DNA from: Branchiostoma floridae
Taxonomy: Eukaryota > Chordata > Leptocardii > Amphioxiformes > Branchiostomatidae
Assembly (NCBI RefSeq): GCF_000003815.2
Contig: NC_049994.1
Location: 7,588,424-7,652,423 of the forward strand
Direction of reading: 5' to 3'
DNA: 64,000 nucleotides
The notes below the pieces were generated by a model. The model saw only the letters and a list, made by a program, of their open reading frames with translations, had not been told where the DNA came from and did no database searches. Of the stretch, positions 42,226 through 53,100 are shown piece after piece; positions within the stretch are counted from its first letter, which is position 1, and every line of letters starts with the position of its first letter. A program made the translations under genes and the position numbers.

Positions 42226-43860
42226 CTTGCCTCCTGAGGGTCTGAGAAGTCGAAGCATAGAACTGATATGCTAGTTTTCTGACCGATAGCTGGCGGAGAC
42301 AAAATCAGCAGAGCACAGTGATAACACCCTGCAATTTCTCAAAAACACTTTTATTAGTAAAAGATTCACGGACCTGACGGTCTGAAGTACACTTTGCAGA
42401 ATAGCACAGACAGCTGACCAGTCTTGTCGGCAGTTGTTGAAAAATGTGGACAAAACACTCCACATCATACTTGCCTTCATCGCCCTTCGTAATTACTGCA
42501 GCCATTGGGATCTTTTAATTCGATGGCTCTTAATCTATAATTCCCCAACCCACCTATCTCACATGAAAAGTATGCACAGACGATTGATGGCCCAGTTCTT
42601 TTCGCTTCTGCCAAAGATTTCTGATGCAATGACGGTTAGAGTATATCATGTAGGTGGATACCTGATAACCCCCATGCAGAGCCTCTTTCATTAAGTACAA
42701 CATGGTTAATACATAATCATTATGATTCTAAGGAATGTACTATTTGAGGACTTACAGAGCAACAAACGTGGGTAAAACCAGCATAATTCATTTTCAAGTA
42801 GCCTTATATCCCCCATACAGAGCCCCAATAATTACTTGCAATTAGTTGAAGCATTTTTGACAATTAAGCGTGATCCTACGCAGGAACACCAAAAAGTTGC
42901 CGTCCATTACCCCATAGTGAGCAGCTATTACCTGTTTTAACGTAGTCAAAAAGCTGGAAAATCCCCATAAAGACCCCCCGCTCACGGCTCGTGGTATACA
43001 TGGCCCAATTAGACGACGCTTGATTTTCAATAAGTAGATATTCCTCTCTCCAGTAAAGGTAAAACCATTCATTTAAATTGCTGGGTGTCGGAGAACAAGC
43101 CCCTTAAAGATCACAGAAATTCAGAGAGTTGAAAATCGTGTTTTCATTGGTTCCGGTAACCCCCTGTAACACCCTCTTAATTTCAATACTTCATCTTCAA
43201 ATTTTTGTCAGTAAAACTTAAGAGCACATGAAATATGGGAATATAAAACGTTTTGTGATATATTAATCAGAAGTATCAGAATAGCCATCGCAATTTCAGT
43301 AATTTTCAGTCATCAATTGTTTGATTTTGGAGGGTCTCAGAGGGGGCCCCCAGAACGCCATAACGAAAAATAGCTGGAGGGTTTTAATCACATGGCTGTT
43401 CATAGTTCCCCATACCTATCGCACATAAAAAGTTTGAGTTGATTTGGCCGACCCCCATCTTCCGACCTCTGCCTGGTTTTGCCTGGTTTTCTCCTGCAAT
43501 GACTCTTAAAAAGCAAAGCAAAAACGTACAATAAGGGTCTTCATTCATTCATTAAAGTGATGCTTGTCTCTTTTCATGTTTTTTCTTTCCTTATAAGTGA
43601 TACCCTACATAAAGATATAATCCTACATACATGCTCTAATAGTAAACCGTTTCCCGTTTGCTGCGCACCATGCGGAATAAAGATAAAATGCAGTTATAAA
43701 GTTGATGAACTTTTCCACCCCATAGAATCGAGTGGAACAGTCTAGCGATCCCATCAAACACCGCGCAACACTTTCTAGCTCGGCGAAAAAAATACACACT
43801 AAATTTTGGCATTTCTGGACGTTATTTCCTCCTTTCAGGATTGTTTACCGACGGGAAACG

Positions 43861-44181
43861 ATGCCCCTAGGCGTGCGGCCGTGCTGTTCGACATGTAAGA
43901 CCACGGACTCGCCGATGTGGCGGCGAAACGAGTTCGGAGACGTGCTCTGTAACTCGTGCTCCTTGAAACAGCTTCAGCTTAGTGTAGCGCCACCCGCGCA
44001 AGAAAACGGCGATTCCAACAACACGACGCAACCTCTACAGCACCAGAACGGGAACAAGGCGGAGAAGATACAGCTCAGGAAGTCCATGCGTGTCCGCTCG
44101 GCTAAGACTAAGGCGCTACAGCAGACCGGGAAGGGTACGGTGACCAAGGGCAAGAGCAGGAGGATCATCTTCAAGAAAAAC
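43861..44181 (+). CDS. GATAD1: GATAD1 exon 1
   Basis: 107 whole codons from ATG to AAC, donor GTGAGT at 44182. Carries the zinc finger and the lysine/arginine-rich linker. Confidence 0.93.
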
Positions 44182-47100
44182 GTGAGTCGCCCCCCTCCCC
44201 ACCTCACCCAGTTACTTAGTACTCGGGCGGTTCCAAAAAATGTGAGGAGGTGGCGTTGATGACAGCACAGTCAGGTTCTGAGTCCTGCATTCCCAGTTCT
44301 AAATTCTTTGACCCCCTCAGGGCTCGAAATTCATTTTTTTTATTAGGTGCTGCACTGTGCACCCAAGCTAAAAAATTGGGTGCACCAAAAACTATTTGGG
44401 TGCACAACATGAATATAAAGTAGAATGTCGTTGTGGTACGAACACAGGTTTGGGACGTCAAAAATAAGCCCTTGCACAGAGATCAGAAATGCATGTGCGG
44501 CGACAGCAATTCTAGGTAATTGTGTCAAAGGTAAATGGCAGAGACAAGGACTGTTCTCTTTTTCGAGGAGCTTACATTTGACATATTACCTAGAATTCCT
44601 GTTGCCGCACCTCATGTGTTCTCATCTCTGTGAAAGGACTTATTTCGCTGAACCCAAATTCCAACATCATATTTGAAAACAAGTAATCTTACAGACATTT
44701 TATCTTTTTTTTAACACTTAGATGTCAAGAATAAGGTTTATAGTTATACTGGTATTCTTTGATATCTTAACAGTTAACATACATAAACCTACAAAAATAT
44801 TTGGGTGCACTGGTGCCCCCACAGAAAAAAAATTGGATGCACAGCTCCATTTTTGTGTGCACCAAGGTGCACATGCACCCAGTATTTCGAACCCTGCCCC
44901 CTTGAAGTCAAGTCCCTGTCCTAAATGCTGCTTAAAAGTCTACAGCAAACTTAAAACTCTTCAAAAACCTCCTTTACTCTTCTGCAGGGAGGTTAGATTC
45001 CTGTGAAAATAAATGAATTTACAGTAACACTCAATGTATTTTTTTTCCACAGCCACTGAAGGCCCCAGCAGCAGTGTCCACTATAGTCACCAGCGAATGC
45101 TTCTTCTATAAGGTAAGGTACAGAGAAAAATAGACCAATTCTGACTGTCCATCACAATTATCAGTTCCACCAATGATAGCACATGGCAATTAGCCATTCA
45201 ACCAATGAGAGCCTGGCTCAATGTCAGCCAAATATTTGCCGTCTGCCTTTACGATTTGATATGGAGCAAATTACTAGTACAGACATCATCGCTGCTTCCT
45301 TCATGTCTCCACTATATATATACTTTCTATGTTTTGCAAAAGATGCACCACAACATTTGTATTGGTTGATGGCTCAGAAGAAATTATAGCCACGGATTCC
45401 AACCCCAGAAAATGCCTGTTACCTGAGCAGACAAGAGTTCAAATAGTAGCCAGAAAGGTAGTAATTCAGTTCCCAGATTTATTGTTTGTCTGGTAAAGCC
45501 AGCTACCCAGGCCCTCTGACAGATCACATTAGATTGCTAAGTACTGACACTGTAGGGTATTTTTTGTTTCTTATTTTTTGTTATTCATTTCACCAACAAA
45601 ATCGTCTTGAATATGCCCAGGAGGTGAAACCCAGACACAAGCTAATGTTGTTGTTTACCATCCTGTTTAGTCTACTTTATTGTTGTCCCATAAGTGTGGC
45701 GTAACTGGTAGAGCGTTTGGTTTGGAATCAAAATGTCCTGAGTTCGATACCCAACATGCCCTGACATTGTGTCCTTGGGAAAGGCACTTTACATGATTTT
45801 CCCTGACAGTGGAGTGATGCCCACCGAGCCTCCTTTGGCTAATCTGTCTAATTGTGTGCCAAAAACACACTACGGATTTGGTGCGCACATCTGCACATTG
45901 GTCTCCCACCAAAAATCATTAATTTTTTTCTTCTATATGACAGGGTATCTACTACCAGATGGGAGATATAGTGTCTCTGATGGACCATGACGGAGGTATC
46001 TACTATGCACAGATTAAGGGTTTCATGCAGGACCAGTACTGTGAGAAGAGTGTGGTCATCACGTGGTTGTTACCAACCCAGGCCAGCCCCAGGGACCACT
46101 TTGACCCGGCCACGTACATCCTCGGTTAGTTATTTTTTGATAATAACTTTATTACAAGAAGGGTTTGACTTCTATTCCGTATGCAGTGGGAAATGAATTG
46201 TCCAACACTTTTGTAGATGAGCGGTTGGACAACGTATTCTTTTTTGTCTGTGTAGGTATCTGTGTGTGTATACAGGACTCGAAATTCATTTTTGCGATTA
46301 GGTGCACTGGTGCACCCAGCTTAAAAAATTGGGTGCACCAAAAATTTTTTGGGTGCACCACTTAAAGCAAAACACAAGGCAGCGTGAAACCTTTTATTAT
46401 TTTACGCAAAGTACCCCCAAAAGTCGATTTACGAGTTGTTGGTATAGGCCTTCGTACCTACGAGCGGTGCCGGCAGATCATATTTCCGGCTAACCGAGAA
46501 TCCCGGGGACTCCCCGCCGCGGCCATTTTGCCTACATCCGGGTACTTCATGACGTCAGTGGGAGCAGATTCGTGCGTCGTCTGCTGTTCCACTCGCCATT
46601 TTGAAGGATCGCGTTTCACAACAAACCGGCCGGCGTTTCACAACAAACCGGCCGGCGCGCAGCGAAGCTGTGGCGATTCCGTAGGCACGTCAGTTTATTC
46701 CAGCGTCCAGGGAGCAGTGTGGTGCAGTATGGAGCCAGGTCTCGAAGAGGAAATCGCTGGGATGAGCCTCGGCCCCATAGCTTACAATTTTCACCCTCGG
46801 CGCAGCGATCGTGAAAGATCTGGGACTGGGGACGGGAGCGTCAGTGTAGTCCGCCCACGACCTCGAACCCCGGTATCCCCGCCGTCTGAGCCGGAGCTGT
46901 TGGAGAGCATGACTGTTTCAGAGTGGGACGGGGTGGATGTAGAAACAGAGAACTGGCGGCTGGAGCAGTTCACCTGGTGCCGGTGCACGAACTGCCAGCC
47001 GATGCCGTCCGTCCGGGAATGTGTGTGCTGTCATGATCTGACCGAGGCGGAGAAGAAAGGCATTGGTGACGGCATTTTGTGTTTAGTTGAGCACGAGGAC

Positions 47101-50100
47101 TTCCACGCCAACAATATCAACAAGACCGTGCTTCGTTCGGCACTTCTGGCGCGCGTGGAAAACCTGAGGGAAGCTCTGGGGGATCCGATCCTTCATCGCA
47201 CCTACCGGATGCAAGCGTATCGCCAGTGCACCTACTGGCTGCACGAGAGACTCGGCACGCACATCAGACGAGTCATCCCGTCGTGTGTGGTCTGGGCCAT
47301 CCGAGACGCGTATCCAGAGAAGAAACGCGAACATTATAGGGGCTTCCTAGAGGCCGATGAGGTGTATGATTTCATCTATGAAGCTCGGCGTTAAAGTCAA
47401 TTCCCAGTCAGCGAGAGGGTTTTGATATAATATTTGTATTAAGTTTAAACTATTCTAGATAGACGAATATTTCAGTCACTCAAGTTCTAAATTGTTCAAA
47501 CAATTAAAAGTGAAAGTTTGAAAATGTTTGAACCTATCTGGATATGTTGGAAATATTGGGAAAGTAATGGTACAAATATCTCTTTATTTAGAACAATTTA
47601 GAAACATCTAGAAACATCTATGTGTTTTTGTACATGTTATTGTTGGAACATGTGATCAGTGATGTTATAAACAGTTCTAAAAAGTTACTTATTACAATTA
47701 GAATGTTATAAAGATTTCCAAAATGTTGGAAGAAAAGGCAAGAAACACCCGCTTGGTATTGTAAAATTGACTCTAAGAGTTTAATATGACATATAACACA
47801 AACATTCAAGTTTTATGTCGGCCACCTATTTATTCTTGTTCTTGTTGTGTGACATTTGCTAAGATGAAGGGAGTCGTTCATCGTGCATTTTAAATTCTGT
47901 AATACAGAATGTACCAGAATAGATAAGTAAACAGTAACTAATTCTAATACATGTAACATTAACAGTGTTAAAAGTTCAGTAGGAAAGATGTATGCAAAGT
48001 ACCAATGTTATATATTAAAGGGATCTCAGAGTTGTGTGCCACTTTCTGTGCATGCTTTAACAATAATTAATAATAGCATACAAAATCTTATTCTAATATC
48101 ATCACATTCTAACATCATCATATTCATCACATTCCAATATTCATACACTACTGCTATTCAACCATGTAAATTAAATCTCTCCTTCCTATAAATTTTTATA
48201 ATATAAGCTACAAATATTAAATTGCATCTCGCATCACCAGAATCAAACCTTGACTAGGTTAACACATTTAACTACTTAGGTGTAGTCCTTGACAGTGCTC
48301 TATGGTGGAATGATCATATCATTCATATCACAAAGAAACTCTCGCAAGCTATCGGTATCATGAAGTGCCTGAAGCCTTTCATCAACAGACAAGCCTTACT
48401 GACAATATATACTGTACATCCCTTTTCCTTCCACACTTACAGTACTGCAGTACTGTCTGGGACCAAGGCAGCAAGGCTTACATAGACAAACTGAAGAAAC
48501 TCCAAAACAGGCAGGTAGGGTTATCCTGGGCTCTATACACCCAGAGAAACCATTATGCATATACACTCGGATGGACCCCAGTGGTGGACATCCATAAGAG
48601 GAATAAACAGTACAGTGTTACAGTGTTATGGAACTTGCCTCCATCTACAGTGAAAACAGTACTAGTGATATTATGCTCTGAGTATGTAAAGCTAGCGGAG
48701 TCCGAAACGAGTCATGTAACCATCAATGATTGCTTGCTTGTCACCACGCTCCTCTGGAGCAATGTTTCCAGAGATGTCAGGGCCCGGATCTGGCAGCACC
48801 ACCTTGCCACACTTGTACTGGCCACTCGCCTGCCTTCGCACCACATCTGCCATCAGGTACTCCCTGAATTCATACGTTTTCCCCTCGAATAGCCTTCTGT
48901 AGACCCAGCGCTTCGTTCTCTTAGAGAAGGCAGCAGAGCGTCTAGCCTCATCTGTAGTATGACAAATGAGGAAAGTTATATGGATCATAAAACAGTAACT
49001 GTTGTATTTAAAAAAAAAGTTATACTATAGCATTGTTAAGTTTCTCAACTACATGTATCTCTAATGCTTTACACATGTGTAGTGTGTTTTGGGGTGTGTG
49101 TGTGATAGTAATACAAAATATAAGAAATGAGTCTTTTGTCTCCTGGCAATTAACAATTCATGGATACATGTATAAGCAATAAACTATAATAGATATATTA
49201 CAAAAAATATATAGGTGAGAGCCATCATTCTATATAGAATATATGGTACACTTGAAATGTTTAGAAGAGGAGTAGCTGCATACAATTGTTGTGATGCAGA
49301 TAAAGAGAGGTTGACTTAATATAAAGAGGACAAATCTCCACAGTTATGTCTGTACCTTCAAGTGTCTTTGCCTGCTCTCTCAGCACGTTTTCGTTGTGAT
49401 CAAGTACTGCTAGCTGCAACCTCCCCTTCATTCCATGGAAAAAGTAGTGCTGCCTTTTCGGTGCATACTTCAGAAGCATGGAGTGAAACACCTCCACAGT
49501 CCCTGTAGAACAAAAAGAAAGAAAGTGTACATGTATATTTTTGTTTTTGAATTGACAATTTCCTGTTTTATGCATTATGATACAGCAAAGTGAATTTTTT
49601 TACATTCCCAATGCTATGATATAGAATTATCAAAACCCATCTCTACTCATATTGTAAGAAATCAGAATTTCATCTATGACATTACTAGTACTAATATACA
49701 ATTTTCATGTTCTTGTGCAGGTTCAAGTAAATGTGTATGCTTAAACCCAGTCCACATTTAGAGCAAATGCACATGATAAAATAATAGTATCTAATTACCT
49801 GTGTGCTTGAAGCCTGTCAAGTGTGACAAGTCTTTAAGCAGTGTTTTGTTAGTTGCGATGTTGTACAACGCCTGATGTGGGGGGGACCCTGGCCGCAACC
49901 ACATGATGTCATCTGTGTCGGCTCTGTCTAGATGAGGGTGGGCACACTGGGTGAAGATGCTGTTTTCAGGAAACACATGGATGTTGCCAATGTGTTTCAA
50001 CATGGACAGCCATTTCTCTTGGAGGAGCTGCAATGAATAAAGAACTGTTAATTCAAAGGAATGCTTCTGTCACATTAAACCATGCATACAAGCAATGATA

Positions 50101-53100
50101 TAATAGAGAAATATTGACTTCCATGTTGATAGGTACACTAAGTCTAAGGCAATACAATATCAATTTCAATTTTATTGTATATTTTTTCAATTGTAATTTT
50201 CTTCTTACCACATCATCTCCTTGGCAGGTATCTGAGATATGCCACAGATGATTCACAATGAATTTTATCCACGGGCCTAGGTCTTTCTTTGCTCTTCGGC
50301 TGGCCTCTTGCGTTAGCTTCTTCGTAATGGATTTTGCAAAGTGGAAGAGATCAAATTGGTGGTTGATGTCACGTCTCTTCTTCAGGACAGCCCCCACTCC
50401 CCGGTGCCGGTCCGTTACAATGCAGTCTATCTTGATTCCCTCCTCTTCCAGGAAGTCCAGCGACCTTTCAAAACCCAACCTTTCCATAGCATTAGAGCTT
50501 GTTGTCTCGCTAACCTGTACTAGTTGGAAATCGAGGATGAGTTGTGACGTTTCCTCCATTAGACTGTAAGAACAGTATTTTGCGTTGTGCCCAGGAGTGT
50601 CGCATCTCCCATCACCTAGGAGAGTGACCTGGATTTGATCTTCAGGACTTTCTGTGCCTGCATTACGGAATGCATCAAGGGTGAATTCCTGTTGTGATAT
50701 GTAGAAATCATTGATGGCAGGTAGGAGGAATGTCCTTTGGACATTCATGAAGTACGTCTCGGAAAACAGTTTCAGTTTTAGAGTATTACAGATGTCACTG
50801 AATTTCTGATAACTTCCCCCAGCAAAAAGTATAGCTGCAGATGTCAAGAGGTTGCCCTCTGCCATACGTCCAACCTTCGGCTGGGATTCCCAGGTCCCTC
50901 TGTGAAAACTGGTACACTCGTACTTGACAGTCAGCATGGAGCCAGTTGTGAACTGTTCTGTGATCAATAAGGGTTCCCCACAGTGGCATGTCTTAAACCT
51001 TTCACGAATCTTGTCTTTGTGCACGACATAGTACTGCGAGTCATCATCTCCAGAAATGAAGTCATCCTCTCCATCATCCCCACCCTCATCTTCACCACAG
51101 TCAATCTCTTCTTCATTTTCTGAATCAGATGTAAAATCTGACGGATGGAAGGAAGTGTCTTTCATGTCTACTACACTTGGAGATGATAGGAATGATTGGT
51201 CCAGATCACTATGTTTCAGAATGGGGGTTGAGGAAGGCAGTGATGAAACAGAGCCTCTTATAGGTATCACCTTGGGTGTGGAAGGAAGATGTGATGTACA
51301 TGTCACAGTGTCACATGTTTTGGGGCGTGAAGTGGAAAGTAGTGATGCAATAGTGTCACCATCGAGGTCTGTTTGGGTACTTGCATTTACAAACCTGGGA
51401 GGCTGGTCACATGGAGGCTTGCTGTATGTATGAAACATACTGGTGAGTCTGCTGGAAGGATCTTCCCCACTGAGGTTTGTACCACTAGTACTGCCACAAT
51501 GCCCTGCTTCAACAGCTGCCTCATTCATTGGTTCCTGGCTCTCACAATGAAATGTACTTTGTTTTGGACTTGTGGGAAGTGCTGGTATTTTGAGCTGTTC
51601 AGAATTTGGCTGAAGCAAATCTTCCAGGAGCTGAAATATGGACATAAACAAAAAATTGATTTCATGTGGAATGATAAAACTAACATATTAAATAGGGATT
51701 CACTGTGGTTACACAAAAGCTAAATGAACCTTTCATTTCATAAATCACCTCTGACCCCAACCCCACAACATGTAAACATAAAAGGTAAAACACTATAGAA
51801 AAGCCAAGGGAGCTGGAGGTAAAGCCTTCAAGCCTCAACAAGCTTAACATCTAAAATTAACATCTGCCTTATTATGCTTATGATTCTTGACAAAATTGTT
51901 CAGTCAGAAGTCTCATATAGTATATACATTGCTAAAAACATGTTTTCAGACATTTGGTATCATAAATTCTTACATTTTTTTTTTGAGCCATGAAAAATGT
52001 ATTCAACCAGAAACAATGTCTAACAGTTTAAATTAATGAACAGCACAAAATATCTGGTTCAATCAATTTTTTGCATATACATGTATAACAATTTGAATAA
52101 ACGTGAAGCAGAAAAAGCAGTAGGATACCTGTATTCGCGTTCTCTTTTCACGTTGACACTCGGATGAGGAGCGCGATGATTTCAGGCCAAACTGTGTGGG
52201 TACTGCATCGTTGGATATCACTTTGGCTGGCACTTTGTAAGGCACATATTTGGCCTTCTGGTTGTCGGTGCAACAGCTGGGCGAGAAATGATCCGAGCAG
52301 ACGCGGGCGTTGTTATTTGTAGCGATACTATCTTTGATCTTTTCGAGAGTCCATGGCAGTCGCAACTTTGATCTAACCGCGACCAGCCATTTCTGTAGCC
52401 TGTCTTCTTCCCAGCGGGGAAAGCGATGGAAGCTTATCCCCTTCGTGTTTTTGTTGGTGTTCCTACACACCACGCAGACCGGCATGGTTTCCCTCCCTCC
52501 GCGTTTCGGCAGGACGTGAGCGGACGCTGGAATAAACTGACGTGCCTACGGAATCGCCACAGCTTCGCTGCGCGCCGGCCGGTTTGTTGTGAAACGCCGG
52601 CCGGTTTGTTGTGAAACGCGATCCTTCAAAATGGCGAGTGGAACAGCAGACGACGCACGAATCTGCTCCCACTGACGTCATGAAGTACCCGGATGTAGGC
52701 AAAATGGCCGCGGCGGGGAGTCCCCGGGATTCTCGGTTAGCCGGAAATATGATCTGCCGGCACCGCTCGTAGGTACGAAGGCCTATACCAACAACTCGTA
52801 AATCGACTTTTGGGGGTACTTTGCGTAAAATAATAAAAGGTTTCACGCTGCCTTGTGTTTTGCTTTAAATTTAAGTAATAAGTTAATATCAAATTCTTAA
52901 ACAGGTACCATGACAGACATTTTTATTATCTTTCTAATACTTAGATGTCAAGAATATGATGTATATTAGTATACTTTGATATCTTTACATACATAAACGT
53001 AAGAAAATATTTGGGTGCACCCTGTGCACCCACAGAAAATAATTGGGTGCACAGCTCCAATTTTGGGTGCACCTGGGTGCACATGCACCCAGTATTTCGA

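Follow-up and report, generated by a model that had tools for sequence, protein, structure and literature searches.

A 64,000-nt stretch of the Branchiostoma floridae genome (contig NC_049994.1, positions 7,588,424 to 7,652,423; hereafter the window) carries an open reading frame (ORF) of 221 open codons (46729-47394, plus strand) whose predicted product is, judged by its sequence, homologous to the C-terminal ballast domain of the receptor P2X7 and has no channel. The ORF is very probably KolX, the second gene of a KolX-bearing (Kol0-type) Kolobok DNA transposon, as suggested by its domain match, by the element in which it lies and by its relatives elsewhere in the genome. KolX of the Kol0 lineage was described as similar to the P2X7 C-terminus by Kojima and Bao in 2022, who concluded that P2X7 is a fusion of a P2X4-like gene with KolX (PMC9587614). 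That paper cites Kapitonov and Jurka for the first description of Kol0 Koloboks with KolX. In our literature search, KolX was named only in PMC9587614, and one review contained Kolobok and P2X7, once each.

The KolX protein matches the P2X7 ballast domain

The Pfam profile P2RX7_C (PF20478) matched the window KolX with 60.3 bits against a cut-off of 23.5 (E 3.1e-16), aligning residues 67-206 with profile positions 65-191 of 192. In a search of 177,635 distinct PDB sequences, the sole four matches at E <= 0.01 were all P2X7 (best E 1.1e-4), and a two-sequence profile recovered the same four entries. The P2X7 C-terminal motifs that an earlier note on this DNA had named in the ORF are present, and the sequence match is specific. 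In the PDB alignment (numbered by hand), C84, C86, C89, C118 and C186 of KolX pair with zinc-site cysteines of P2X7. The pattern of the seven zinc-coordinating ballast cysteines is present in KolX with variable spacing, five of the seven pairing directly, and a zinc domain is predicted from it. The same note had described the ORF as lacking a channel, and indeed the eight P2X matches in the genome lie elsewhere, at C11:13.75 Mb and C19:7.12 Mb. An NCBIfam match of KolX to ClpS, far under its cut-off, was taken as chance.

A longer frame (46384-47394) continues into the terminal inverted repeat (TIR) of the element. In preference to a start within the TIR we adopted the ATG at 46729, which is the likely start because the aligned start in a relative at C10 (L056) is also Met, 21 nt inside the TIR of that relative.

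KolX and a THAP transposase share one TTAA-bounded element

The element spans 6,499 bp between two TTAA tetranucleotides and has the following features (window coordinates; basis in brackets).

46362..46365, unstranded: left TTAA target-site duplication (ends matched to the second copy; joined-flank repeats)
46366..46708, plus strand: left TIR, 343 nt, 5'-AG start (identical to right arm)
46611..46657, plus strand: 22-bp unit, tandem duplication within the TIR, mirrored at 52573-52619 (repeat pairs)
46729..47394, plus strand: KolX ORF, 221 amino acids, predicted P2X7 ballast-like zinc domain, PF20478 (Pfam, PDB search)
48692..48988, minus strand: probable last transposase exon (similar segment L056:4316-4609, compared by eye)
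49261..49575, minus strand: transposase exon with presumed catalytic Glu, GTVEVFHS (catalytic assignment by motif)
49791..50033, minus strand: transposase exon with Cys/His between second Asp and Glu (motif)
50053..51651, minus strand: main transposase ORF, carrying DxxH and two presumed catalytic Asp, GDGRCD and TDRH (motif)
52063..52485, minus strand: first transposase exon, THAP domain (Pfam)
52522..52864, minus strand: right TIR (identical over 343 nt to left)
52865..52868, unstranded: right TTAA target-site duplication (same basis as left)

The two TIR arms, one inverted copy at each end within the TTAA, are identical at 343 of 343 nt. KolX (plus strand) and the transposase (minus strand) each start beside one arm, with the KolX start 20 nt inward from the inner end of the left TIR and the THAP ORF start 36 nt inward from that of the right. 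The 22-bp tandem units are possible candidate sites for protein binding. The transposase is split over several minus-strand ORFs; its first exon (52485-52063) encodes the THAP domain (Pfam, E 3.6e-13), and the order Asp...Asp...DxxH...Cys/His...Glu suggests a DDE-type transposase with DxxH, assigned by motif only. The main transposase ORF had no Pfam match, and its best library match was to the IS256 family, weak and far under the cut-off (NCBIfam, E 1.1e-4); a weak match to ISH3 also lay far under cut-off.

When the flanks were joined at one TTAA (187 nt) and compared with the genome (513,431,437 bases in 431 contigs), an interspersed repeat matched across the junction in 40 of 40 scored copies, at 85-94% identity, the scored candidates being drawn from 1,763 in the first pass. 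The repeat, uninterrupted in these copies, is as predicted for insertion of the element into a copy of another repeat. Window positions 46280-46365 and 52869-52969 thus form an interspersed repeat around the element, of which the 40 scored copies elsewhere have no insertion.

A DNA search with the KolX ORF found five places: the window, a copy at C15 (99%) and three partial relatives (72-79%). The C15 copy (6,477 bp) is 98.9% identical in alignment to the window element, with TTAA on both sides, 343-nt arms identical to each other and a frameshifted KolX. The C10 relative L056 (6,195 bp) has TTAA and perfect 212-nt TIRs; its KolX is 62% identical to that of the window, and its THAP frame (by Pfam) starts about 200 nt inside its other TIR. 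The termini are AG...CT in the window and C15 copies and AGGGG...CCCCT in L056. A TTAA-TIR search gave perfect pairs in the window and L056 and a pair alike at 21 of 25 positions in L059; L057 (family B, C6) and L058 yielded none at the thresholds used. The earlier note had placed the ORF in a DNA transposon, between TIR and transposase and directly after the TIR, as the TTAA, the TIRs and the minus-strand THAP transposase confirm. It had also held that other copies lacking the ORF would count against its proposal; the second full-length copy, that at C15, has KolX, in frameshifted form.

All these features agree with published Kol0 Koloboks: TTAA duplications (window, C15 and C10), 5'-RR and YY-3' ends, a transposase with THAP (Pfam) and DDE plus DxxH (motif), and a second protein with ballast homology. 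We found no departure of the window element from the published type; the Kol0 lineage is assigned by features, not by a transposase tree. PMC6004289 names a B. floridae Kolobok, Kolobok-2_BF, which may or may not be the window element.

Ballast-domain genes and Kolobok transposases are linked across the genome

At E <= 0.01, PF20478 gave at least 28 genome hits, many of them single exons, a count that is a lower bound; the window hit scored highest. A search with the transposase core (50215-51021) gave 33 matches, merged into 25 loci. For 12 of the 28 ballast hits there is a Kolobok transposase locus within 10 kb, at a distance of at most 7.3 kb; uniform placement would give 0.03 such neighbours, and the linked KolX and transposase genes are convergent in all 12 cases. 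The 10 kb around the other 13 transposase loci hold no ballast hit; C2:2785201-2785896, with an 872-aa open frame, and C6:26900078-26900386 are transposase loci of this kind. A genome search with a family-B transposase exon gave 15 hits and no additional linked ballast hit.

From similarity at the DNA and protein level we grouped the hits as families A (with A2), B, C, D and E, into which L030 and L041 fit only weakly. The family-E N-terminal exon scored 13.8 bits with PF20478, under the cut-off, and that of family C gave no PF20478 match, so that the N-terminal halves in these two families rest on tblastn and motif.

Distances between KolX proteins and between their transposases correlate over ten pairs (r 0.80, p 0.0001-0.0002), and still do so without the near-duplicate D_C13 (r 0.65, p 0.0005). 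The distance rows overlap partly, are short in families B and C, and for C_C19 probably include intron read-through. With these limits the correlation supports, without proving, a shared history of KolX and transposase.

Several observations weigh against a KolX gene that is a ballast homologue and travels with its transposase. When it is reduced to seven pairs, with a single D and a single B, the correlation is weaker (r 0.44, p 0.04), and C_C1 and C_C19 are discordant, with a KolX distance of 0.22 and a transposase distance of 0.58, whereas C_C1 and E_C5 stand 0.41 apart in KolX and 0.39 in transposase. The CC pair of KolX (C100, C101) is unaligned, the P2X7 CC lying five columns further on; we take the two pairs to be equivalent from the motif and not from the alignment. 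Run on the window protein alone, AlphaFold2 gave a poor model (mean predicted local distance difference test score 44.5), and Foldseek of this model against PDB gave no match at E <= 0.001 and no P2X7 among the best 50 of 57 matches at E <= 10; a model of this quality speaks neither for nor against a shared fold. No transposase hit lies within 10 kb of the remaining 16 of the 28 ballast hits. Seven of these (L037-L040, L042, L043, L045) form one multicopy family, 93-99% alike; what these seven near-identical loci carry is a disrupted KolX-like remnant, with no transposase detected beside them (two were read over 7.7-8.5 kb). An intact KolX in cis is therefore not needed to multiply, and such a family could be served in trans. 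Three other unlinked hits (L025, L033, L035) share 97-99.6% identity over 1.6-2.7 kb with a hit that has a transposase beside it, and six (L022, L024, L030, L031, L041, L044), one of them at a contig end, are unexplained.

Two loci, L058:2724-7419 and L059:1434-6333, belong to the multicopy family just described, a Kolobok-like derivative, and the imperfect TIRs of L059 (AGGGG...) adjoin TTAA. L022, L024 and L031 (C6:27.77 Mb, C17:7.10 Mb and C6:26.21 Mb) are family-B exons near which no transposase was detected; they are possibly remnants or host genes.

Representatives of six KolX families keep the cysteine pattern and two arginines

Across one representative per family, compared as sequence pieces, the patterns C.C..C...CC...C and P[SA]C were kept in all six (A, A2, B, C, D, E), as was the Arg before AYR, the site of R546 in rat P2X7. 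As for R578, the Arg of IR that follows P[SA]C was located by script in B and D, while in A, A2, C and E it was identified by eye. Outside these representatives, L044 lacks the second and last cysteines of the pattern, and the multicopy loci L037-L045 lack the first cysteine cluster. PMC7016195 names five GDP-binding residues for rat P2X7 and reports that, of the residues in contact with GDP, R546 and R578 alone are conserved across the animal ballast proteins that it compared. In the PDB alignment the window KolX likewise keeps the equivalents of R546 and R578 and not those of H547, R574 and K583; family B keeps RH at 546-547 (RHAAYR). The ratio of nonsynonymous to synonymous substitution rates (dN/dS) was low where estimable: 0.05-0.12 in family C (53 codons) and 0.19 in family B (89 codons), by NG86, which was computable in two of five comparisons (dS was saturated in three); YN00 was computable in one of five.

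Family B scores nearer to P2X7 than the window lineage

Searched against PDB, the C-terminal exon of family B matched P2X7 with 34.8 bits over 75 residues, compared with 24.8 bits for the whole window KolX and 14.7 for the family-D exon; the C-terminal part of the window KolX alone gave nothing at E <= 1. By these bit scores the window lineage is not the best donor model and family B is nearer, a ranking by score only. None of the 28 ballast hits lies on C11, and the sole hit on C19 is about 5 Mb from the P2X matches.

Outside the element, an open frame at 43732-44259 of the window encodes a GATA-type zinc finger and presumably resembles GATAD1.

Discussion

The KolX of this element shares with the P2X7 ballast (PDB 6u9v and others) the zinc-cysteine pattern, the AYR and PSC..xxIR motifs and the R546/R578 equivalents, and differs from it in having no channel, in the three residues not kept and in the CC spacing. 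The ballast domain occurs in many animals (Rump et al. 2020, PMC7016195). Nanor and the solitary ballast (ZCD) proteins of that study are, like KolX, short with only this domain recognised, whereas the window KolX lies inside a transposon. In the portion of PMC7016195 at hand, no word beginning with 'transpos' occurs; the paper does mention a tick protein in which a THAP-type domain (printed 'TAHP') precedes the ballast region, which fits a transposon setting. The route proposed in the earlier note, by which a mobile element carrying the domain alone could have supplied it to P2X7, has the homology and the transposon setting on its side; it has been in print since 2022 (PMC9587614), so its central idea is not new, and the window KolX is not closest to P2X7 by PDB score. 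On balance we favour the proposal of Kojima and Bao that the P2X7 ballast descends from the KolX family and was captured from a transposon, a direction that this genome does not settle.

The opposite course, in which Koloboks captured a host ballast gene and P2X7 took its domain from that old host gene, strikes us as unlikely, if worth keeping in mind. In sponge, molluscs, arthropods and echinoderms, two conserved markers are reported to be linked to ballast genes (PMC7016195), as would be expected of an ancient host gene, and six of our 28 hits have no detected transposase beside them and are not near-identical to a linked hit. Against this, the other 22 are transposase-linked (12), members of the multicopy family (7) or near-identical to a linked hit (3), and KolX and transposase divergence go together on the whole. 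That the element is a piggyBac, which also uses TTAA, with a KolX-like protein is almost certainly wrong: piggyBac KolX-like proteins lack most of the seven cysteines, whose pattern the window KolX has, 5'-RR and YY-3' termini mark Kolobok, unlike piggyBac (PMC9587614), and the window element ends in AG...CT and has a transposase with a THAP domain.

As to what KolX does, we infer, with a modest leaning, an accessory role in transposition. The identical TIRs may both act as promoters, with KolX transcribed inward from one and the transposase transcribed from the other, and KolX would be a nuclear zinc protein that helps the transposase in its assembly or its action at the TIRs. A passenger gene with no part in transposition would suit the multicopy family with only a disrupted KolX-like remnant and the frameshift in the C15 copy; we think it improbable given the cysteine pattern and two arginines kept in six of six family representatives, dN/dS well below 1 in the two of five comparisons that were estimable and the convergent layout of 12 of 12 linked pairs. 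We also doubt that the target of KolX is the host and not the transposase, as it would be if KolX countered silencing or sensing, for instance, a reading with nothing direct in its favour beyond the later building of the domain into an immune receptor. More speculative still is an analogy with P elements, which share with Koloboks a THAP domain and a transposase of the C/DxxH group (PMC9587614) and need GTP for pairing, cleavage and strand transfer; they differ in their own GTP-binding insertion and 8-bp duplications (PMC7776569), where the present element has TTAA and a separate ballast protein. The P2X7 ballast has GTP/GDP and dinuclear zinc sites of unknown function (PMC9859053). By this analogy KolX would be a separate guanine-nucleotide-binding subunit of the Kolobok transpososome, the in trans counterpart of the P-element domain. 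We give this little credence: three of the five rat P2X7 GDP-binding residues are not kept in the window KolX, the P element is called unique in its use of GTP (PMC7776569), and the multicopy family spread with a disrupted KolX, though supply in trans could account for that. Were it true, the GTP/GDP site of the P2X7 ballast would be a relic of transposition.

It is striking that an inflammatory receptor may have a regulatory tail of common origin with a DNA transposon protein, a link in print since 2022. To this the B. floridae genome adds several KolX families beside their own transposases, and two copies of the window element, 98.9% alike, with identical arms. The window element and these families are good material for studying the role of KolX and the origin of the zinc and nucleotide sites of P2X7.

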